The notes below the pieces were generated by a model, which was given only the letters and a program-made list of their open reading frames with translations, did no database searches and had not been told where the DNA came from. The position numbers were made by a program, and so were the translations under genes. Positions 4,742-32,167 of a DNA stretch of 32,167 nt are shown piece by piece (within the stretch, counting starts at the first letter, position 1; each line of letters begins with the position of its first letter). This DNA comes from a virus: the IMG/VR virus record IMGVR_UViG_3300025137_000159, positions 1-32,167 of that record; one strand, written 5' to 3'.

Positions 4742-7702
4742 TTAGCCACCTAGAGCCTTATTAATAGCCCCAGCATTTGACAGAGTTAATGAAGCTATAT
4801 TACCTAGCCCCTGTCCAACAGCAGATAACACTGCTCCACCTTTAGCTACACCTTTGATAGGTTTAGGAGTTTCCATAGGCTCCCTTGGATCCTGGTAAAT
4901 AGTCTTAGGATATTTAAGGGGTTTAGCTGGTTTAGGACCTTTAACAGGTTTAACCAAACGATCTTTATCAGCCGTAAGGTCTGCACTATATTGATCCAAT
5001 GCAACACCTTTGACGTTAGCATCAAATGCTTTATCAATGGATTTGATAGATTGCTTGTACTCGTCTTTTTCAATCTCACGTTGTGCATCAGCACGTTTGA
5101 GTTCTTTGTTTTGTTGTGCTTCAGTAAGATCATAATCTCTAGAAGCAGATTTAAATGCTTCCTCAGCACCTAATTTATTAACTTTATAATCATCCTTAGC
5201 AGCAAGCTTAGCATTTTTAGAACGTTGAATATCAAAACCATATTGAGATAAGCTTGCATCTAATGATGCCATAAGCTGTTTCTTTTCAGTCGTCATTGAT
5301 GCAAGACTATTTTTAAAGACTTGATCTTCAAGCGTTATTTTATCCTCAGTTTGCTTTTTGACAAGCTCATTGTTGGCGCGCTGATTTTCAACAAGCCTAC
5401 CTTTATCTATATTCTGAAGACTTTCGGTTTCAACAATATCCTGCGTTTGACGTGCAGCATCAATCTCTGAAAGTTCTTTAATAGCATTTTGCTGCTTAAT
5501 ATCGCGATCACGATCAATTTGACTACGTTTAAGATTGTCTGTTTGATTGTCCACGCCCCGATTCATATCTGCTAAATCACGTTCAAGAGTTTGATTCCCT
5601 TGGTTCATAGCACGATCTCTATCTGCTCTATCTTGATCTAATCGAAGAGAATCCTGATTTAAAGCCCGATCCTTATCACCTTTTCTACGTTCTAGGTTTT
5701 GTGAATCTTGAAGTAGAGCACGATCCCTATCTGATAAGTTACGACTTAAAGTTTGATCAAGTTGATTTTTCCTTCTAGCTGTTGTACTCTCTTGGTCCCG
5801 TTCTGTTTCCAAATTCTGCGCTAAACGCCTGTCGCGGTCAATCGCCTCTCTAGATAAAGATTCTTTAGATTGATTCTTTAATAAGTCACTAGAGCCTTTA
5901 GAAAATGCTAAATCTTGTTCGGCCTGAGTAAGCCCTCTAGCGCGATCAGTAACACTTCTCTTGAAGGTATCCTGTTGGTCACGTTTACGGCGTTCATTCG
6001 ATATCTGCTGCATAGATTTTAAACTACCAGCTTCTTTGATACGTCGCCTAATATTAGTAACAAGATCGCCTTGCTGGATATCACCACGGAGAATACTGTC
6101 AGTAAGCTGTGCATTCGCACGACCTGCAGAAGCCATAGAAGAAGCTACAAGACGTGCAGCAGACCTTCCTCGACGACCAGATGCAGAAGCGATTCCTTGT
6201 GACTGTAGAGCCTCAAGATTGTTAGCCTGCTGCTGAAACATTTGTGTAGCGCGTTGCTGCTGATATTGCAATGCACTAGTAACCAATTCACCTTTAAGGT
6301 CAGAAATACGATTATTACCTTCAAATAGCTGGTATTTAGTTTGATCATCAAGATCAACAATAGCTTGATCTTTAGCAAGTCTTTGGTCTCCTAAAGTATC
6401 CTCAATAGACCCTATGGTTTGTTGAGTTTTTAATTGTGCAGATTGTAAATCACGATCTAGATTTTGTTGCAATTGCTGTGTAGCTAAACTAGAATCACCA
6501 AACTGATCTTTAATATTTTCCCTGGCTTGCTTATTAGCTAGTTTTTGAGATCCAAAATTACCTTGTAAATCAGCTTGTTGCTGTGCGGTGGCAAGAGCAG
6601 CATCACCAAACGAATCCATGATATTTGCACGATTCTGCTCACTAGCTAATGATTGATCACCAAATTGAGCACCAATATTTGAACGATTAATATCACTCTC
6701 CATGGATTGGCGTCCAAATTGCGCAGAGATATTTTCTTGATTCTGTTGATTAGCTAATTGTTTATCGCCATAGGCATCTGTAATTTCAGCCTTATTCTGC
6801 TCACTGGCTAATGATTGATCTCCAAAACTATCAGTAATACTGGCTATGTTTTGATTGATAGACATGATCTCACGATCACGCTTTGCAGCAATGGAATCTG
6901 TTTGCTGAGCATTTTGTAGCTTCTGATTAGCAAAGTTAGAATTAATGCCAGCTATATTTTGAGTAGAAGCAAGATTTGCATTGTCAATTTGATTTTGCAA
7001 AGCTTGTTTATTACCAAGCGTATTAGTCTCAAGAGAAGCTTGTTGATTAACAAAAGCCTCATCAGCGAGTGTTTTCTTATCTTTAACAAATCCTTTATTA
7101 GCTTTGGCTTCATTAATAGATAAATTTGCTGCCAATTTAGCTTGTTCTAAAGCATTTTCATTTCGTTTGTCAGAAATTGTTTGTGCAGCGGTAGCATCTT
7201 TTAAATTATTTTTATTACCCTTGAGCGCAAAATTTACTGCATCTTGATCTTTAAGATAGCTTAACTTATTACGAAGATTAGCGAAGTCTTGTTCTGCATA
7301 TTGTTCGTCACGTTTATTTTCTGTTTCTGTTACGGCAAGCTTGGCAAACTTTTCGTTGAGTTTAGTTTGATTTTTATAATCTTCCTCAGATGCCTGATAA
7401 GCTTCCTTTTCAGCATCGAAAACACGCTTCCGCTCTTCCAATGCACGATCATAACCCTGTTGATCAACAGCTTCCCGAAATGTAATCTCATTTTCGTTAT
7501 TCTGTCTATTAGTTTCAACAGTTTGTTTTTCATATTCGTAAACATCAGCCCTCTGATTGTTCTCAAACTTCCAATTCTTTTTGTCCTGCTGAAACTGTTT
7601 TTTGATCGCCTCTTTGTTTGCAGAATCAGCACTACTAGCACCAGCAACACTCGCGCCCAAACCCAATGCACTAACACCAAGACCTATCCATGCGGCTGGC
7701 AT
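4742..7702 (-). CDS. Internal virion protein with 18-residue helical repeats (gp14 slot)
   Basis: 986 residues, almost entirely Gln/Asn/Asp/Arg-rich helix. The N-terminus (residues 4-24, WIGLGVSALGLGASVAGASS) is a hydrophobic Gly/Ala segment like the N-terminus of T7 gp14, which forms the outer-membrane channel during ejection. Residues 253-450 are eleven in-register units of 18 residues (consensus like I-x-D-x-FGDQ-x-LA-x-x-Q-N-x-x-N). Residues 586-747 are nine further 18-residue units of a different type (DRDRALxQDSxxLxRDxx). Between them, about 500-530, lies a basic Ser/Ala-rich segment (SGRRGRSAARLVASSMASAG). The start has a strong AAAGGAG site eight bases upstream, inside the end of tail tube B. 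T7 gp14 is only about 200 residues, so this would be a repeat-expanded version if the slot assignment is right. Confidence 0.8.
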   Translation of the reverse strand: MPAAWIGLGVSALGLGASVAGASSADSANKEAIKKQFQQDKKNWKFENNQRADVYEYEKQTVETNRQNNENEITFREAVDQQGYDRALEERKRVFDAEKEAYQASEEDYKNQTKLNEKFAKLAVTETENKRDEQYAEQDFANLRNKLSYLKDQDAVNFALKGNKNNLKDATAAQTISDKRNENALEQAKLAANLSINEAKANKGFVKDKKTLADEAFVNQQASLETNTLGNKQALQNQIDNANLASTQNIAGINSNFANQKLQNAQQTDSIAAKRDREIMSINQNIASITDSFGDQSLASEQNKAEITDAYGDKQLANQQNQENISAQFGRQSMESDINRSNIGAQFGDQSLASEQNRANIMDSFGDAALATAQQQADLQGNFGSQKLANKQARENIKDQFGDSSLATQQLQQNLDRDLQSAQLKTQQTIGSIEDTLGDQRLAKDQAIVDLDDQTKYQLFEGNNRISDLKGELVTSALQYQQQRATQMFQQQANNLEALQSQGIASASGRRGRSAARLVASSMASAGRANAQLTDSILRGDIQQGDLVTNIRRRIKEAGSLKSMQQISNERRKRDQQDTFKRSVTDRARGLTQAEQDLAFSKGSSDLLKNQSKESLSREAIDRDRRLAQNLETERDQESTTARRKNQLDQTLSRNLSDRDRALLQDSQNLERRKGDKDRALNQDSLRLDQDRADRDRAMNQGNQTLERDLADMNRGVDNQTDNLKRSQIDRDRDIKQQNAIKELSEIDAARQTQDIVETESLQNIDKGRLVENQRANNELVKKQTEDKITLEDQVFKNSLASMTTEKKQLMASLDASLSQYGFDIQRSKNAKLAAKDDYKVNKLGAEEAFKSASRDYDLTEAQQNKELKRADAQREIEKDEYKQSIKSIDKAFDANVKGVALDQYSADLTADKDRLVKPVKGPKPAKPLKYPKTIYQDPREPMETPKPIKGVAKGGAVLSAVGQGLGNIASLTLSNAGAINKALGG

Positions 7703-24436: not shown

Positions 24437-25991
24437 TTTCAGATTCCTCAAATTTACAGTTTTCTAAGTTATACTTAAGTGCACAAGCTATTCCAGTCTC
24501 GCCTGAATAGCGATTTTTAAGGACTCTAACTGTCGTAACACCTCCAGCTTGGTCTGATTGTTGGTTGCGTTCAAGTCCAATGACCGAATCGCTGAGCTGA
24601 GCAATAGCAGCAGATCCTCGTAATTGTCCAAGCGTAACTCGTCCTCCTTCTTCATGATTTTTGTCAGTAGTTGTACGTTTTAAATGTGAAACAAGGAATA
24701 GAGCAATACCGGTTCGTTCAACTAAGGAACGTAAGCGTGTCATGGTGATATCAATCATCCGACGTTCATCACCGTCTAGTCCTGACAACAGGATAGAGAG
24801 ATGATCAAGGAAGATAATCTTACAATCAAGACCGCTAGCCATATACTCAATACGATTATAGATAATGTCTGGATCATAAGAACCAAACCCATCAAATAAG
24901 AATAAGTTCCAGTTAGCAATTGTTTTATCAAATGCTTCTGTTAGTTCTTTATGTGTAGGTTCTCCAAGGTGTAAGGATTTACCTACTGAACTAGACATGA
25001 TGCCTAGAGCTGTTTGTCTGTTGGATTCTTCAAGAGCCAAATAACCGACTCGTTCTCCCCTTTGTAATAGAGAACTTGCAATACACCTGCAGAAGCTGGA
25101 CTTGCCGATACCGCTGCCTGAAGTAATTGTGCACAGTGTTCCACGTCGTATGCCATGGAGTTTATTGTTAAGTCCTGCAAAGGGATAGTCATAATCAGAT
25201 GGAGGTGTTGGTGTAGTTACTAGCTCTAATAGACTTTTAGCTTCAATAATGCCGTCAGGTCGATACGCTTTCTTTTCATAGAAAGCTTTATCAATAGCAG
25301 CCCTATCGTTAGCTTGCCATGCGTCTGAGAGGTCCTTATAAGACTCTATACGCGCTATGAATACCTTTCCAGGAGGTAACACACTTGCAGCAGCTTTTGC
25401 CGCATCCTGACCAGGTTCATCATTATCAAACCATAGAATGATCGAATCGTATCCCTGAAGAAATTCATAGTTCTTTTGTACGGCTTTCTTCGCACCTGCT
25501 GCTCCTGTTGGTAGCGAGACAACATCCCATGTTGGTAGTAGTTCCGCATACGTTGCAGCATCAAGCTCTCCCTCAGTAATGACGATTTGCTTACCATGAC
25601 CTTTCCATAGGTGTTGACCAAAGAAAGATCCGTCCGTCTCACCTTCGTAGGAGAAGATCTTATTAGCTGTGCGAATCTTCGCGCCGATAGGTTGGCCATT
25701 TGAGTTGTGATAGTAGAAACGTAGTTGATCTCCATCCCTGTAGATTTTGAATCTTTCACAAGTTTTTTCGGAGATATTTCTTTTTTGCAGCCGTCCGGCT
25801 GATCCTTTATAACTCACGTAAGTGGTTGTCGATTGTGAATAATTTTTCCCGTCTGGTGGTGTCCATGCATGACACACAAAACAATAAGTGTGACCATCTG
25901 TATAGACAGCTTGTCCATCAGATGAGCCACAGTTGTTACATGGATCATGCCGAAGAAACTCAGACGAACCAGTCGATTGGTATGTTTGCAA
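24402..25991 (-). CDS. DNA primase-helicase (gp4-like)
   Basis: 529 residues (T7 gp4 is 566). N-terminal zinc finger: Cys18, Cys21, Cys37, Cys40 (HDPCNNCGSSDG, YCFVCHAW), for primer-site recognition. TOPRIM primase core: IVITEGELDAATYAE (Glu140) and IILWFDNDEPGQDAA (DND 189-191). A linker follows, then the hexameric helicase: Walker A TSGSGIGKSSF (about 291-298), Walker B CKIIFLDHLSIL, and VSHLKR plus GQLRGSAAIAQLSD near the C-terminus. The start is a TTG at 25991, overlapping the endonuclease gene by 32 bases; the zinc finger follows directly, so little can be missing. It unwinds the fork and makes primers for the polymerase encoded downstream. Confidence 0.95.
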   Translation of the reverse strand: MQTYQSTGSSEFLRHDPCNNCGSSDGQAVYTDGHTYCFVCHAWTPPDGKNYSQSTTTYVSYKGSAGRLQKRNISEKTCERFKIYRDGDQLRFYYHNSNGQPIGAKIRTANKIFSYEGETDGSFFGQHLWKGHGKQIVITEGELDAATYAELLPTWDVVSLPTGAAGAKKAVQKNYEFLQGYDSIILWFDNDEPGQDAAKAAASVLPPGKVFIARIESYKDLSDAWQANDRAAIDKAFYEKKAYRPDGIIEAKSLLELVTTPTPPSDYDYPFAGLNNKLHGIRRGTLCTITSGSGIGKSSFCRCIASSLLQRGERVGYLALEESNRQTALGIMSSSVGKSLHLGEPTHKELTEAFDKTIANWNLFLFDGFGSYDPDIIYNRIEYMASGLDCKIIFLDHLSILLSGLDGDERRMIDITMTRLRSLVERTGIALFLVSHLKRTTTDKNHEEGGRVTLGQLRGSAAIAQLSDSVIGLERNQQSDQAGGVTTVRVLKNRYSGETGIACALKYNLENCKFEESEIESEFNPATDF

Positions 25992-27070: not shown

Positions 27071-27297
27071 TAGTTAGTTTCTAGTGTTGATTTCTCTCCA
27101 GACACACGAATGTGTGCTTGCATAGAAGAGCGTTTATATCTATTGGCGAATACATCTGGCAACCAGTATGTTTCTATCCAATATATTGTGGGGCACAACC
27201 TAATGTGTTCTTCTACTGTGTGATTATGAAATCCAATCTGAATGTAACCATCGTGGGTTACACAATTGAACTCACTCCTGTAGATATACAGTTTCAC
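27070..27297 (-). CDS. Small protein between RNA polymerase and SSB, unknown function
   Basis: 75 residues: MKLYIYRSEFNCVTHDGYIQ, IGFHNHTVEEHIRLCPTIYW, ending RVSGEKSTLETN. The start is a GTG that shares one base with the RNA polymerase stop (TAGTG), and its stop shares one with the SSB start. It is rich in aromatic residues and His. No domain is recognised. The region of T7 between genes 1 and 2.5 carries small host-takeover genes such as gp2, an inhibitor of host RNA polymerase; there is no visible similarity to gp2. Confidence 0.7.
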   Translation of the reverse strand: MKLYIYRSEFNCVTHDGYIQIGFHNHTVEEHIRLCPTIYWIETYWLPDVFANRYKRSSMQAHIRVSGEKSTLETN

Positions 27298-29633
27298 TAA
27301 CAGAAAAAATAAGTTGATTCAATCACTGACTCAGGGCAGAGATCGCCAATGATTGGAGGTTTGGTTTCAGCACCTATCTGGCTTGCCCAAGTTTCAAGGT
27401 AGGAATTCTCAGCGAATAGGTGCATATATGTTTCACGAACAATGGATGAAAGAGTACCCATATCCGTTGCACGACACAGGACAGAATCATGTATTAGTGC
27501 TAGTGGAGCATCGAACCTTAGTGCAGATAGGTGTAGAAGACTTGCATCTAAGGAGTGGATTAAGTTCGGTGCTGTTGCATTCTTGTGATGTAAGAGATCT
27601 ACCTTGTCGCTGTCTTCAGTAGCAATACGAATCTCTACACGGCCAAGTAGCTGAAGCTTGACATTCTCAACCAATTTTTTGTTGAGCTTCTGAGTGACAA
27701 TGAATCCTGATGGTGTTACCCATTCAAGTTCACTGACACCTCGCTTAATAGCTTTAGCTACTTCAGACTCGATCCATTTCATAGCAGCCATAGGACCAGG
27801 GACTACTACAGCCATTGCTGCTCTAACAGCATTAACAGTTTCAGTTAAGTCCTCCTTACTAATCTCTACATTTTTGGATTTTAAAGCTTCACGAATGTAG
27901 CCTCTATTAGAATGTGGTTTAGCGTTATAAGGTACCGTCATAACTACACGTTTGACAGTCTTTCTATCCATGTAAGGTTGAATACTTACAGGACAGTTTG
28001 GTTTAGCTTGCTCGGCAACGATTTGATAGGCGTCTTGTGGCCGATCTGACGGCAAGACGTTGACCAATCTTGCAGTGGACGCATCTCTACAGAGTCCGGC
28101 GAGGATTTGTAACCCGGAACAAGTTGCATCGGTTGCAACTGGCAAAGAAGTATAATCTCGATCACATTTAATTACGCAATGGTAATACTCATCACATGCT
28201 GCTAAGAACTGCCAGGGTTCTTCTGCTGCTTCCCACATAGATATGGTGCTTATTGGGTCTTGAGCGACCGCAGAAATCACCGCATCGTTCTCTTGCACCC
28301 ATTGCATACGTTCATGCATAGGTGCTTTATCAAGACCATAAGTAGTAGCAACTTGAAACGCTAGCCAGTCTTCAGCATCAGGTGTCATGTATGACTCCTC
28401 ACTAAATTTAAGTAATGACTTACCAAAATCAGTATCCTGAGGAGTTAAGAAAGCAGGGATGGGATAAGCACGTCCTCTGTAATCAAAGGACCAAGGAATG
28501 AAGAACTCCTTCTTATCTTTGAATAGCTTTGCTGCTTCCATTGTCATGCGTGTTCTACATGACCTTTTAAATGAAGCTGCATTTGTATTTAATACTTCAG
28601 CAGCTCTTCGTCTGTAGTCTTTACGAGAATCTTTGTTCTCTGCAATATCTACAGGCTTAGGTGGTAGAGGGATTTCTACAATAGGGACAAACTTACCAAT
28701 AGGCATTCCAGCTTGCATCAACGTCTCAGCGACGTCTATTGTGAAAGAATTAATTCGATAGCCTACCTTCTGAATTTTATTCAAGAAGGCATAGGGTGTT
28801 TCTCCCTGTATACGTCCGACACCGCGTCGAACCATGTCGTGACCTCGAATTACCTCATTTAATAGGTAACCTCCTTGACGCGATTCAGACCAATCATTCG
28901 GTTCAATAAGCATGGGATAAGCGATGGGACTGAATAATTCAGCCGTTGCCATTACCTCATCCTTGATCTCAAGAAACTCAGGTGTTGGTATAACAAAAGA
29001 ATTTGTTTTTTTACCTTCACGCTTGAGTTCTTTCATGAACCAACCGCTTGACTCCATGATGCAATCTAGTAACCAACCGCCAAGCTTTACACGATCAGTA
29101 CGATGCCAAGATGACCATTGAGGTACATCATATCTTTGAATCAGCGTGCGAATAATGACAAACTTCTGATGTGTGCCAGTAGTATTATGCCAATAGTTCT
29201 TCTTGATAGTATGTAGCAGTCCAGGGCAATTCTTCTCATAGAACTGCATCTGAGCTTCTTGTTCTACTGCTGTACCAATAGCATCACATACGGTTAGAAG
29301 TAGATTAGCTTTATCTCTATAGCTAAATACCTTATCGAAGGTAATCTTCAGTGCAATTGCAGCACATGCACCAGCTTCTATTGGCTCAAGGTATTGATGT
29401 ATTTCCTTGAATGACTTTCCAATGCATCCTTCACGGATACGCTTTGTGGTGTCTTCAATCCGCTTGGTAACCAGAGGCAGAAGAGTAGAAATACTGCTGC
29501 ACCCATATACGCTAGCGGATGCATATGACTTTGCTTCGAGATCTCTCGTGTTTTTGCGTAGACGCTCAAGCCCGAGTCGGATTGCATCTCTTTCAAATTG
29601 AATTTGCTCATCTATTTGTGCTGGCGTTGCCAA
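27297..29633 (-). CDS. T7-type single-subunit RNA polymerase
   Basis: 778 residues, about 100 fewer than T7 (883), mainly in the N-terminal domain. Palm and fingers motifs are intact: IPWSFDYRGRAYPIPAFLTP, ATDATCSGLQILAGLCRD (catalytic Asp near 502), MDRKTVKRVVMTVPYNA (Arg557, Lys561, Tyr569, spaced exactly as T7 Arg627, Lys631, Tyr639), PNLIHSLDASLLHL and LALIHDSVL (second catalytic Asp near 716). The start is a TTG with GAGGA six bases upstream; no ATG fits better. It transcribes the phage genes downstream of itself. A sigma70-like promoter lies 31 bases upstream, consistent with early expression by host polymerase. Confidence 0.97.
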   Translation of the reverse strand: MATPAQIDEQIQFERDAIRLGLERLRKNTRDLEAKSYASASVYGCSSISTLLPLVTKRIEDTTKRIREGCIGKSFKEIHQYLEPIEAGACAAIALKITFDKVFSYRDKANLLLTVCDAIGTAVEQEAQMQFYEKNCPGLLHTIKKNYWHNTTGTHQKFVIIRTLIQRYDVPQWSSWHRTDRVKLGGWLLDCIMESSGWFMKELKREGKKTNSFVIPTPEFLEIKDEVMATAELFSPIAYPMLIEPNDWSESRQGGYLLNEVIRGHDMVRRGVGRIQGETPYAFLNKIQKVGYRINSFTIDVAETLMQAGMPIGKFVPIVEIPLPPKPVDIAENKDSRKDYRRRAAEVLNTNAASFKRSCRTRMTMEAAKLFKDKKEFFIPWSFDYRGRAYPIPAFLTPQDTDFGKSLLKFSEESYMTPDAEDWLAFQVATTYGLDKAPMHERMQWVQENDAVISAVAQDPISTISMWEAAEEPWQFLAACDEYYHCVIKCDRDYTSLPVATDATCSGLQILAGLCRDASTARLVNVLPSDRPQDAYQIVAEQAKPNCPVSIQPYMDRKTVKRVVMTVPYNAKPHSNRGYIREALKSKNVEISKEDLTETVNAVRAAMAVVVPGPMAAMKWIESEVAKAIKRGVSELEWVTPSGFIVTQKLNKKLVENVKLQLLGRVEIRIATEDSDKVDLLHHKNATAPNLIHSLDASLLHLSALRFDAPLALIHDSVLCRATDMGTLSSIVRETYMHLFAENSYLETWASQIGAETKPPIIGDLCPESVIESTYFFC

Positions 29634-29663
29634 TGAAATTCCTCGCTAGAACCAGTGAATAGA

Positions 29664-29692
29664 ATCATACCCTAGTGGATATGTGTGTGCAA
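29664..29692 (-). promoter_or_regulatory. Sigma70-like promoter of the RNA polymerase gene
   Basis: On the minus strand TTGCAC (29692-29687), 17 bases, TATGAT (29669-29664), ending 31 bases before the RNA polymerase start. The spacer contains ACATATCCACTAGGG, which with the -10 box repeats the element at the MarR-like gene promoter (18 of 22 bases identical). The -35 box touches the hairpin at 29692-29731. Confidence 0.7.
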
Positions 29693-29731
29693 CTGACGCC
29701 TCAGGCTTTTTTACCTGAGGTATACGTCAGT
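29692..29731. repeat. Interrupted inverted repeat (hairpin) next to attP
   Basis: ACTGACG plus CCTCAGG on one side match CCTGAGG, a 4-base TATA bulge and CGTCAGT on the other: two 7-bp stems, with an 8-base loop containing six T. It lies between the putative attP and the promoter of the RNA polymerase gene. There is no T-run after the stem in either direction, so it is not a canonical terminator. It could stop read-through from int, be a recombination-protein site, or insulate the promoter. Confidence 0.7.
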
Positions 29732-29749
29732 GATTAAGATTCGCCTTGG

Positions 29750-29789
29750 AACCTGAAACTAGCGCGTCTACCAATTCCGCCACATCCGC
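29750..29789 (-). other. Putative attP: 5' half of a leucine tRNA gene
   Basis: Forty bases on the minus strand read as the start of tRNA-Leu: GCGGATG acceptor, T8, the leucine-type D-arm GGCGGAATTGGTAGACGCGC, then TAGTTTCAGGT with anticodon CAG in the loop. After this the bases no longer pair with the anticodon stem and no variable or T-arm follows, so it is a fragment, not a gene. It lies directly downstream of the integrase gene. In phage P-SSP7 a 42-base match to a host leucine tRNA sits in the same place and was proposed as the integration site. The fragment holds the 5' half, whereas many integrating elements use the 3' end. Confidence 0.85.
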
Positions 29790-29872
29790 AGAGGGATTCC
29801 AGCGATGAGACTCACCGTAGAATCGCCGCTATTGCAGCTAGAAAATGGTATCACGCTACCCATTAGTCGCGC

Positions 29873-30769
29873 TCAGATAGCAGCCATCGCTTCCGAGAGT
29901 GCTGAATCTGTAGCTTTTGCATACCGTAATGTTGTTTCGATACGCTTGTGTCCGCACAAAGCCATGATGGATCTGATTGGGACGCCAGCATCAGCGAGCC
30001 ATGTTGCGTAACTGTGTCGAAGCGTGTGGAATACATAACCATCCTCTTTTCCTAAGAGTTTGTTGACCTTTCTAAAGGCTCTTAACAGTTGATCTTTGTC
30101 CCGCCATTCATCGCCAAAAATGCGAACTGTGGCGGACGATTGTGAACAACGAGAGTAAACCATGTCCTTGATCTTGTCATGAATTGGTATGGCTCTCCAA
30201 TTCTTAGGCTTGGTTATTTGAGTAGGGACGCCTCCAACGTGTATCAAGTTACTTACAACATCAATGTCCTGATTCCTTATCCGTAAGATTTCACCCTGTC
30301 GCATACCTGTATAGGCAGCGAATTGAATGATGTCAGATAAGTCATCACGCGTAAATACATCAGTGGACAAATGAGATAGTTGATTAACCTCACTTTTGGT
30401 GTACCAGAATACACGTCCCTCTGATTCCTTACGCCTACGAAACTTAGGAGCTGATTCAATCAACTCATCCATGAGTAGGTGGTTAAGGACAGTCGAGAGT
30501 GCACTGACGATTCGATTGATAGTAGCGTCGGATTTTCCTTCGTCTTCCCACTCAATACACCATTGATTGACAACGGCTGGCTTGATGCGTTGGACAGGGA
30601 AGGATCCTCCCGCGACCCGACTAATGTGCTCGCAATTAATTCGAGCTGTCTTTGATCCATTGCCATGTCTCCATGTGTGGCGAGTTTGGAATGTGTAGTT
30701 CATGGCTTGTTGCCATGTTTTGATCTCATCCATAGATAGTGGATTTGATAAGGTGGACAAGTGACTCAC
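29873..30769 (-). CDS. int: Tyrosine-family site-specific integrase
   Basis: 298 residues. The catalytic set is complete: Arg157 (AAYTGMRQGEILRIR), a Lys in TKPKNWRAIP (about 187-189), His248 and Arg251 (FHTLRHSYATWLADAG), His274 (LCGHKRIETT) and Tyr283 (LRYAKA). Residues ~15-110 form the core-binding SAM-like domain (QAMNYTFQTRHTWRHGNGSK, SALSTVLNHLLMDELIE). It would recombine the attP fragment just downstream with a host leucine tRNA gene. It overlaps the MarR-like gene by 44 bases; an internal Met13 would leave about 8. An intact enzyme next to a matching site suggests a working system, although a temperate life cycle has not been proven for related phages, to my knowledge. Confidence 0.95.
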   Translation of the reverse strand: MSHLSTLSNPLSMDEIKTWQQAMNYTFQTRHTWRHGNGSKTARINCEHISRVAGGSFPVQRIKPAVVNQWCIEWEDEGKSDATINRIVSALSTVLNHLLMDELIESAPKFRRRKESEGRVFWYTKSEVNQLSHLSTDVFTRDDLSDIIQFAAYTGMRQGEILRIRNQDIDVVSNLIHVGGVPTQITKPKNWRAIPIHDKIKDMVYSRCSQSSATVRIFGDEWRDKDQLLRAFRKVNKLLGKEDGYVFHTLRHSYATWLADAGVPIRSIMALCGHKRIETTLRYAKATDSALSEAMAAI

Positions 30770-31088
30770 CCTTGGAAGTTAGTTTCAACAGGTGTCTGCG
30801 TCCGTTACCAGGATCGGTGTACTTCTCAACTAAGCCAAGACCAGCCGATAACTTACCGGGCCGTTGTTTGCCATTAGTTAAAAAATCAATCATCCGTGAA
30901 CAGGATGCAGTCGTGAGATTCTGATCTTCTTCTATAGCCTGTTTATGACAGGGATTGTGTGAGGCTACATACAGAAGAACAGTTACCGCTTGCGCAGGTA
31001 TCTCACGATGCTGAAGACGTAACATCTCCCAAGCGTTGAGTAGATCATTCAGCTTGCTGTCTGTTTCTTCTCTTTTGAGGGGATCCAT
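30726..31088 (-). CDS. MarR-like winged-helix DNA-binding protein
   Basis: 120 residues. The layout is a helical N-terminus (DSKLNDLLNAWEMLRLQHRE), a helix-turn-helix (IPAQAVTVLLYVASHNP, EDQNLTTASCSRMIDFLTNG) and a beta wing (LGLVEKYTDPGNGRRHLLKL, TSKGESLVHLIK), as in MarR/PadR-type regulators. The wing sequence D-P-x-x-x-R-R-x-x-x-L-T-x-K-G is the usual MarR signature. It is the first gene after a sigma70-like promoter and is coupled to int. The element repeated in its own promoter and in that of the RNA polymerase gene is a natural candidate operator. A lysis/lysogeny switch role is inference. Confidence 0.8.
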   Translation of the reverse strand: MDPLKREETDSKLNDLLNAWEMLRLQHREIPAQAVTVLLYVASHNPCHKQAIEEDQNLTTASCSRMIDFLTNGKQRPGKLSAGLGLVEKYTDPGNGRRHLLKLTSKGESLVHLIKSTIYG

Positions 31089-31105
31089 GGTTCAAGCTGA
31101 ACTCC

Positions 31106-31135
31106 ATGATAAGCATACCACAGTGGACATGTAAA
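31106..31135 (-). promoter_or_regulatory. Sigma70-like promoter of the MarR-like/int operon
   Basis: On the minus strand TTTACA (31135-31130), 18 bases, TATCAT (31111-31106); TATGCT at 31117-31112 is an alternative -10. The transcript would start only about 10 bases before the ATG at 31088, so the mRNA would be nearly leaderless. The block 31132-31111 is 18/22 identical to the block at 29684-29663. Confidence 0.6.
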
Positions 31136-31232
31136 GTGCGACGTGAAATCCACACGTCATATCTAGAGATGTCATTGAAGCCAAAATAAAACAAAAGAAG
31201 TTAAGATAGACACAAGTGAAACATCGCAGCGA

Positions 31233-31400
31233 TTAACAAACGTCGTCGTTCGGTGTGATACCAAATGTAGATGCCTCTCTATGTAAATACATTTTGACTG
31301 CATCACTAATCAATTGAATCATGGTTTTGTCACGCTGTGCAGCTAGTACCTTAAGATCGCAATGCATACTGTCAGTAATGATACAAGTCACGCGCTTCAC
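31233..31400 (-). CDS. Tiny ribbon-helix-helix protein (Arc/CopG type)
   Basis: 55 residues from a GTG at 31400, directly after an in-frame stop; an ATG at codon 12 is too late for the fold. The layout is RHH: a beta strand (KRVTCIITDSMHCDLK), helix 1 (LKVLAAQRDKTMIQ) and helix 2 (MIQLISDAVKMYLHREAS). This matches the usual pattern R-x-x-x-x-[LI]-x-[DE]-x-x-x-x-x-[LK]-x-x-x-A, a [KR]-[ST]-x-[ST]-x-[LI]-[IL]-like turn, and A-[VI]-x-x-Y-L. RHH proteins bind DNA as dimers and often regulate their own operon. Together with the MarR-like protein downstream it makes two small DNA-binding proteins ahead of int. The ribosome-binding site is weak. Confidence 0.7.
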   Translation of the reverse strand: MKRVTCIITDSMHCDLKVLAAQRDKTMIQLISDAVKMYLHREASTFGITPNDDVC

Positions 31401-31437
31401 TCAAAATCTTGTTCAATTGGGCTCATGATAACAATAA

Positions 31438-31602
31438 TCAATAAGTAGACATGCTTAGTGGCGATGTAAATACATCCCAATTATCATACACTAGAGTATC
31501 ATTAGAGAATCCATACGCTAAAAAGGTAGTAAACTCCTCATGCGTGAGTTGTTCAAGCTTGGTCTGGTCGTTGGTGATCTGTTCAATCTGTTGTTTGGTC
31601 AT
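31438..31602 (-). CDS. 54-residue early protein, unknown
   Basis: MTKQQIEQITNDQTKLEQLT, HEEFTTFLAYGFSNDTLVYD, ending FTSPLSMSTY. ATG at 31602, TGA at 31440-31438. It overlaps the end of the 105-residue gene upstream by 20 bases. The first 20 residues are a Gln-rich amphipathic helix; the rest is aromatic and acidic. No family is recognised. Position among first-transcribed genes suggests a host-takeover role, which is inference only. Confidence 0.6.
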   Translation of the reverse strand: MTKQQIEQITNDQTKLEQLTHEEFTTFLAYGFSNDTLVYDNWDVFTSPLSMSTY

Positions 31603-31900
31603 TGTTTTTGGTGGTAACTAAGTGAATTGAATCTTCATTGCATATCGTCAAGATGTGTTTACCATCCATCAAATATTTGACCATGCGATCTTTGGCAGCA
31701 TGTGGCCGTTGATAACTGTGCTCAGTGATGGCACCTGTTTCTTTATGTTCTGCCCGAATAATGCACTGAACACTGGATGGAATCTCCCATCCATTAAGCT
31801 TAAATAGTTCAAACTCTTCCCATGTACAACCATCAAAATATTCACTAGGTGCGTCTTTGATAGCCTTCCAATTATTAGGGAACTCCTTCCTACCACTCAT
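31583..31900 (-). CDS. 105-residue early protein, unknown
   Basis: MSGRKEFPNNWKAIKDAPSE, then FELFKLNGWEIPSSVQCIIR, and HSYQRPHAAKDRMVKYLMDG, ending in a polar tail (VTTKNNDQTTD). No membrane segment and no recognised domain; the alternation of charged and aromatic residues looks like a small globular alpha/beta protein. The ATG at 31900 overlaps the end of the upstream gene by 11 bases. Function unknown. Confidence 0.7.
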   Translation of the reverse strand: MSGRKEFPNNWKAIKDAPSEYFDGCTWEEFELFKLNGWEIPSSVQCIIRAEHKETGAITEHSYQRPHAAKDRMVKYLMDGKHILTICNEDSIHLVTTKNNDQTTD

Positions 31901-32072
31901 CCGTTCTTCTCACATCCGTTAGTGTACAATTGCGTTGATCGGATAACTCAAGAGCTTGCCAAGCAGCACGCTCAGTATTAGGAGCCAGAACATATTCAAT
32001 GAATACATTCTCAACGTCATCTTTCAATATTACTTTGTATTGATCATACTTAGTGCGTCCAAGTAAAGGCAT
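31890..32072 (-). CDS. 60-residue early protein, unknown
   Basis: From the ATG at 32072: MPLLGRTKYDQYKVILKDDV, ENVFIEYVLAPNTERAAWQA, LELSDQRNCTLTDVRRTDEW. A longer frame begins with a TTG at 32105, but GGAG lies about 13 bases before the ATG and nothing precedes the TTG. The pattern of strand-strand-helix (YKVILKD, FIEYVLAPN, ERAAWQALELS) looks like a small ordered domain. No family is recognised. Confidence 0.65.
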   Translation of the reverse strand: MPLLGRTKYDQYKVILKDDVENVFIEYVLAPNTERAAWQALELSDQRNCTLTDVRRTDEW

Positions 32073-32167
32073 TGAATGACTGTCTCCGGAGTCGATTGTG
32101 AACAATTGTGGTTAATCAGATACACACATGCACCTGTAAAACTAATAATTATGGGAAGCAAGCCAAT
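32030..32167 (-). CDS. Possible small membrane protein, partial at right edge
   Basis: An open frame enters from the right edge and ends at 32032-32030: IGLLPIIISFTGACVYLINH, then NCSQSTPETVIQCLYLDALS and MINTK. The first ~18 residues would span a membrane. It overlaps the 60-residue gene by 43 bases. With the start outside the window it may be only a chance frame. Confidence 0.35.
   Translation of the reverse strand: MGLLPIIISFTGACVYLINHNCSQSTPETVIQCLYLDALSMINTK

Follow-up and report, generated by a model that had tools for sequence, protein, structure and literature searches.

The closest described parallel to the locus considered here is in the Pseudomonas phage LUZ100, where a MarR protein is proposed to bind sites at the promoter of the RNA polymerase gene and to restrain the polymerase (PMC10134795), in keeping with a model for temperate T7-like phages (Boeckman et al., 2022, as cited in PMC10134795). 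Another example is the cyanophage P-SSP7, whose pMarR (PSSP7_011) was reported as an activator of the host gene rne that shows weak binding at several sites (Lambrecht et al., 2022; PMC9692554). According to the same paper, pMarR is a proven DNA-binding dimer, something known for this P-SSP7 homolog only, and its residues S66, R67 and G106 are required for the calcium response, DNA binding and dimerisation (PMC9692554). P-SSP7 and a second cyanophage, S-TIP37, have a known tRNA-Leu attP and integrate transiently without stable lysogeny; the study describing this reported that homologs of known lytic-cycle repressors were lacking, and the term MarR is absent from its main text (Shitrit et al., 2021; PMC8776855).

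The window, meaning the whole 32,167-base stretch that was analysed (IMGVR_UViG_3300025137_000159), belongs to a T7-like cyanophage that carries the photosystem gene psbA and has its genes mostly on the minus strand, where all features located below also lie. In its early region, the closest annotated relative is S-CBP1. The early end begins with a ribbon-helix-helix-like (RHH) protein (31233..31400; Pfam 56B_RHH, E 5e-5, below the gathering score), followed by a MarR-like regulator (30726..31088; PHROG 9665, E 1.5e-30, with Pfam MarR_2 below its cut-off), a tyrosine integrase (int, 29873..30769; Pfam PF00589, E 1.3e-24), a tRNA-Leu fragment, a hairpin and the T7-like single-subunit RNA polymerase (RNAP, 27297..29633; Pfam PF00940, E 1e-65). 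The tRNA-Leu fragment (29746..29790) is partial, with no whole tRNA gene there, and its DNA matches to tRNA-Leu genes and cyanophage attP regions make it a candidate attP core, so that integrase and candidate attP are both present in the window. The strong hairpin (29692..29731; fold z -4.45 for the region) occupies the interval from attP to the RNAP promoter; relatives show stem changes with pairing retained, a clear T-tract is absent, and the structure may insulate RNAP from int transcription. A search of 29000-32167 against Rfam gave no match. The window stops short of the left-end early-promoter region seen in longer relatives. Separately, TTCACAATCGAC recurs in apparent gene leaders of the window, at 25831-25839 and 32094-32102.

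A first-pass annotation of this DNA had pointed to two 22-base blocks, identical at 18 positions, in the two early promoters. The count is exact: ACATGTCCACTGTGGTATGCTT at 31132-31111 and ACATATCCACTAGGGTATGATT at 29684-29663 differ at 4 of 22 bases. Judged from comparison with relatives, both blocks very probably serve to dock the MarR-type regulator that the virus itself encodes, and the element is probably an operator of the phage MarR-like protein over host-type early promoters, with repression as its most likely effect. When up to three mismatches are allowed, the shared pattern matches twice in the window, with no third copy (mean 0.01 over 100 shuffles), and because this pattern was made from the pair itself, fairer tests of chance than pattern shuffles were needed. 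The best 18-mer common to both 175-bp upstream regions agrees at 15 of 18 positions (p about 0.005), and the RNAP-side 18-mer, set against the 1.1 kb up to marR, finds 15 of 18, a score reached in 0 of 200 shuffles and by 0 of 29 control 18-mers taken from the same upstream region.

The same annotation held that both blocks include the -10 region of their predicted promoters, which is only roughly right. The RNAP-side copy (29663..29684) contains the -10 TATGAT of a sigma-70-like promoter at 29664..29692 (TTGCAC-17-TATGAT as read from the sequence, the scan giving the overlapping TGCACA-16-TATGAT), whereas the marR-side copy (31111..31132), which is conserved in relatives, sits in the spacer of TTTACA-18-TATCAT, the best sigma-70-like match for the marR-int operon (31106..31135). 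At the level of consensus promoters, the element overlaps the promoters of marR and of its putative target RNAP. The additional TCCACT cores near and inside int are coding sequence and look like chance, as had been thought possible. MarR operators are roughly palindromic and span 16-20 bp. The RNAP-side copy holds an inner imperfect dyad, CATATCC-ACTA-GGGTATG, at 29666-29683, and the dyads are clear in S-TIP37 and in two relatives (L032, L018). A generic symmetry score of upstream regions showed no difference between relatives with marR (5.12 of 7 pairs) and without it (5.09), so palindromy was dropped as proof.

A conserved small ORF of about 50 codons, beginning with TTG (31045..31194), overlaps the marR start and encloses the marR-side copy at the codons V-H-C-G-M. 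This ORF, unannotated in the window, has cyanopodovirus relatives, among them a P-SSP2 counterpart annotated as CYLG_00025, and is conserved across the group as ..YFGFND..YDIW..RRTLHVHCGMLI.E.SL.. Since this copy is coding, protein conservation could account for it. However, the codon choice is fixed in relatives (His CAC in 19/19, Gly GGT in 18/18 and Ile ATA in 9/9) while neighbouring codons vary, the preceding His being CAT in 12 of 15, and fixed codons amid varying neighbours argue for constraint at the nucleotide level. Three relatives (L021-L023) have lost the site from the ORF and carry a near-perfect palindrome, TACACTGCAGTATA, about 220 bp upstream of marR. In the diverged clades the marR-side coding position is without a clear site and its codons vary; because V-H-x-G codons partly force similarity, marR-side matches in those clades were left uncounted.

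Relatives were collected from viral contigs, 40 by MarR and 80 by RNAP, and among those with a MarR of at least about 60% identity, most have TMCACTNNGGTATR about 40 bp upstream of marR; ahead of RNAP, at a distance of about 45-65 bp, stands TMCACTNNSGTATR or a near variant of it. Of 11 dereplicated marR-bearing contigs, 10 have the RNAP-side site, compared with 2 of the 24 in which the locus has no marR (Fisher p 4e-6, a value that ignores ancestry, as these site statistics treat related contigs without full ancestry correction). Of the two exceptions, one contig ends inside int, before marR would be reached (L050), and the other is genuine (L074): over its positions 1-1720, neither marR nor int stands between the early genes and RNAP, and the RNAP-side site is retained, as if both genes had been lost naturally and the site had stayed. 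Whole-record scans of 44 contigs showed the strict motif to be confined to the marR clade and its near kin, every marR-less record being free of it. The looser form TRTVC-N6-GBAYA is 13 times denser in early regions with marR than without (0.39/kb vs 0.03/kb), a density that is descriptive and gives no independent test, because the form was read off the same sequences, just as the element consensus was built from the sequences that display it. Contigs reaching further left have noncoding copies at the left end, with two in tandem in several of them (L005, L007, L010, L016, L017), and the left-end copy of L072 sits in a canonical TTGACA-17-TATATT promoter.

Three further observations concern individual relatives. 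Extra TATCCACTAACGTATG-type copies occur at the start of the ssb gene after RNAP in L012 (7796), L014 (6957) and L142 (9081), with none in the window. S-SRP01 (L139, 2887-4501) has int and the tRNA-Leu attP yet no such site; an unannotated 120-aa protein stands at the position of marR, and TTTAGG-CGTATGA-CCTAA precedes RNAP. A clade with marR and int and with the tRNA-Leu attP absent before RNAP (L026, L028, L072, L121, L113) includes three members, L028, L072 and L121, that have a second, inverted TATACCC-like copy beside the RNAP site and TTCACAATC in their RNAP leaders.

It might be argued that the element is early-promoter architecture only, reflecting a preference of the host sigma factor with no phage regulator, and that the likeness arose from promoter duplication and consensus. 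The element does overlap -10/-35-like hexamers, its noncoding copies all point along the direction of transcription, and L074 retains it without marR. The first-pass annotation had named this very outcome, a similarity fully explained by promoter consensus in relatives that lack the regulators, as what would count against an operator. Nearly all relatives without marR are without the element, an absence that is partly trivial, since in these phages the RNAP gene mostly stands directly or closely behind an early ORF and has no separate promoter region of its own. Against pure promoter architecture there is also the conserved TCCACT-NN-GG, which lies outside the hexamers, the change of the element by clade in step at separate promoters, its presence in S-TIP37-like phages without the -10-like half, and its absence from marine cyanophages that have no marR. 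The relatives thus support a site for a trans-acting regulator over a bare promoter consensus, and we consider promoter architecture by itself improbable. From these comparisons, marR, int, attP and promoter together behave as a cassette.

In more diverged clades, the sequence is different and the promoters are the same. S-TIP37 and its kin, whose MarR is 43% identical to that of the window, have a pre-RNAP site at the same position (start -50) that reads CTGTGC-N6-GCACAG, and this sequence occurs exactly twice in the 45,477 bases of S-TIP37, once ahead of the first gene (569-586) and once ahead of RNAP (5043-5060). P-SSP7 has TATCCACTAAAGGACA before RNAP and TATCCACATCGGGACA at 294, with candidate sites at 294, 651 and 5980; S-CBP3, P-SSP2 and one further contig (L041) each have their own version of a shared site, and P-SSP7, S-CBP3 and P-SSP2 resemble the S-TIP37 pattern more weakly. 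With a single test for each clade, the recurrence of the RNAP site in the early region has a combined p of about 1e-5, while the within-genome test is individually not significant for L007, L018, L012, L028 and S-CBP1. The shared-18-mer comparison of the marR and RNAP upstream regions gives a significant result in the window and some relatives, is weak outside the window clade, falls short of significance in most diverged clades and was dropped as a general test. The site sequence shifts by clade in step at several separate promoters.

Two other roles for such an element were rejected. The element is kept in the clade without the tRNA-Leu attP, and its other copies are kilobases from attP, which argues that these are not integrase arm or att sites. 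Promoters of the phage's own T7-like RNA polymerase are suggested by the phage-type promoter that precedes RNAP in LUZ100 (PMC10134795), by the strand bias of the copies and by the ssb-gene copy of some relatives. The element was not found before middle and late genes, however, the two copies in the window and the two in the whole of S-TIP37 being all early; with late genes thus lacking it, we regard a phage-polymerase promoter as scarcely tenable. Mid-genome matches (helicase C-terminus, scaffold start, RNAP and int genes) fall inside coding frames and were rejected as coding.

Of the two DNA-binding proteins encoded nearby, the MarR-like protein is the better candidate for the binder, as the loci compared here suggest. 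The RHH gene is adjacent, and RHH proteins are often autoregulators, which would make the upstream RHH protein a second candidate regulator; many loci retain the sites with RHH missing or beyond recognition, among them L018 and L028, whose contigs extend 4 kb upstream, and the sites are tracked much better by MarR, so that regulation by RHH is very unlikely. The MarR-like protein has the winged-helix MarR fold (AlphaFold pLDDT 86.8), its Foldseek hits are MarR proteins (E 6e-5), and the top match is the MarR-operator complex 5h3r. It is 43% identical to P-SSP7 pMarR, and its S64, R65 and G107 align with S66, R67 and G106 of that protein and are invariant in 19 sequences. The helix preceding the SR pair is clade-dependent, reading TTASCSR in the window and STSNCSR in the S-TIP37 group, and these differences appear to run in step with the differing half-sites, which is suggestive only. 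A genome-collection scan for host MarR gave one Prochlorococcus single-cell contig (L141, 5001-5363), which encodes a MarR 81% identical to P-SSP7 pMarR and has no int or RNAP match; this is probably the phage regulator carried as a copy by the host.

From the arrangement of sites and genes, we infer that the operator would span the -35/-10 region of promoters used by host RNA polymerase, and that a dimer of the MarR expressed by the early marR-int operon would bind its own promoter, giving autoregulation, as well as the RNAP promoter and, in relatives, the left-end early promoters. Bound MarR would most likely block these promoters, and the resulting negative feedback could limit early transcription and gate synthesis of the phage RNAP; as a hairpin separates RNAP from int, expression of RNAP would then rest on its own gated promoter. 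If the phage were integrated, the same binding might keep RNAP off. Since pMarR activates host rne, the chief alternative is that the MarR-like protein binds the element and activates or re-times the promoters through the alpha subunit of host RNA polymerase. P-SSP7 pMarR raised reporter expression and bound alpha (PMC9692554). As textbook knowledge has it for MerR, a regulator whose site lies between -35 and -10 is able to activate; on the other hand, MarR proteins at a -10 or spacer site usually act by occlusion, and the studied rne site lies downstream of the start and so has a different geometry. Activation is rated unlikely, and repression by MarR is preferred.

The earlier proposal that a repressor binding both sites would couple int and RNAP agrees with the comparative evidence for a common regulator site, but it is too narrow, since sites at left-end early promoters would imply more than int/RNAP coupling. 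The further idea of a lytic/lysogenic decision stays hypothetical, as S-TIP37 and P-SSP7 have such sites and integrate transiently without stable lysogeny, and the P-SSP7 MarR is a reported activator. A wider reading, which we put forward tentatively as one that could well fail, is that marR-bearing marine T7-like cyanophages have a self-contained MarR regulon over all host-type early promoters, including that of RNAP, in which operator and MarR co-diverge by clade into immunity-like specificities and one operator lies inside a coding ORF. If the operator proposal is true, it names a repressor and supplies its target DNA for T7-like cyanophages, where no repressor was recognised, and adds to the action of pMarR on host rne a function on the phage genome itself. 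The question of dormancy would become testable in P-SSP7 and S-TIP37, for which purified protein or phage genetics exist, and L074 offers a natural comparison for the operator idea.

No report of an operator set of this type was found in the open literature searched, and the systems closest to it each share a part. The best fold match to the window protein, at 18% identity, is E. coli MarR in complex with its operator (PDB 5h3r), where a dimer occupies an operator of roughly palindromic form that overlaps promoter elements, comparable to the operator proposed here; E. coli MarR controls host drug efflux, whereas the proposed operator is at phage early promoters. P-SSP7 pMarR is homologous to the window protein, with equivalent invariant residues, and was studied at the host rne region only, a result on phage promoters being absent from the accessible text (PMC9692554). 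The integration modules of S-TIP37 and P-SSP7 are as in the window, with int and the tRNA-Leu attP before RNAP and marR upstream of int. LUZ100 shares the marR-int-RNAP gene order and a host-type promoter for marR-int, and differs in that the promoter right before its RNAP is phage-specific and its binding sites are hypothetical, while in the window clade the RNAP promoter looks host-type, relatives have left-end sites and the sites change by clade.
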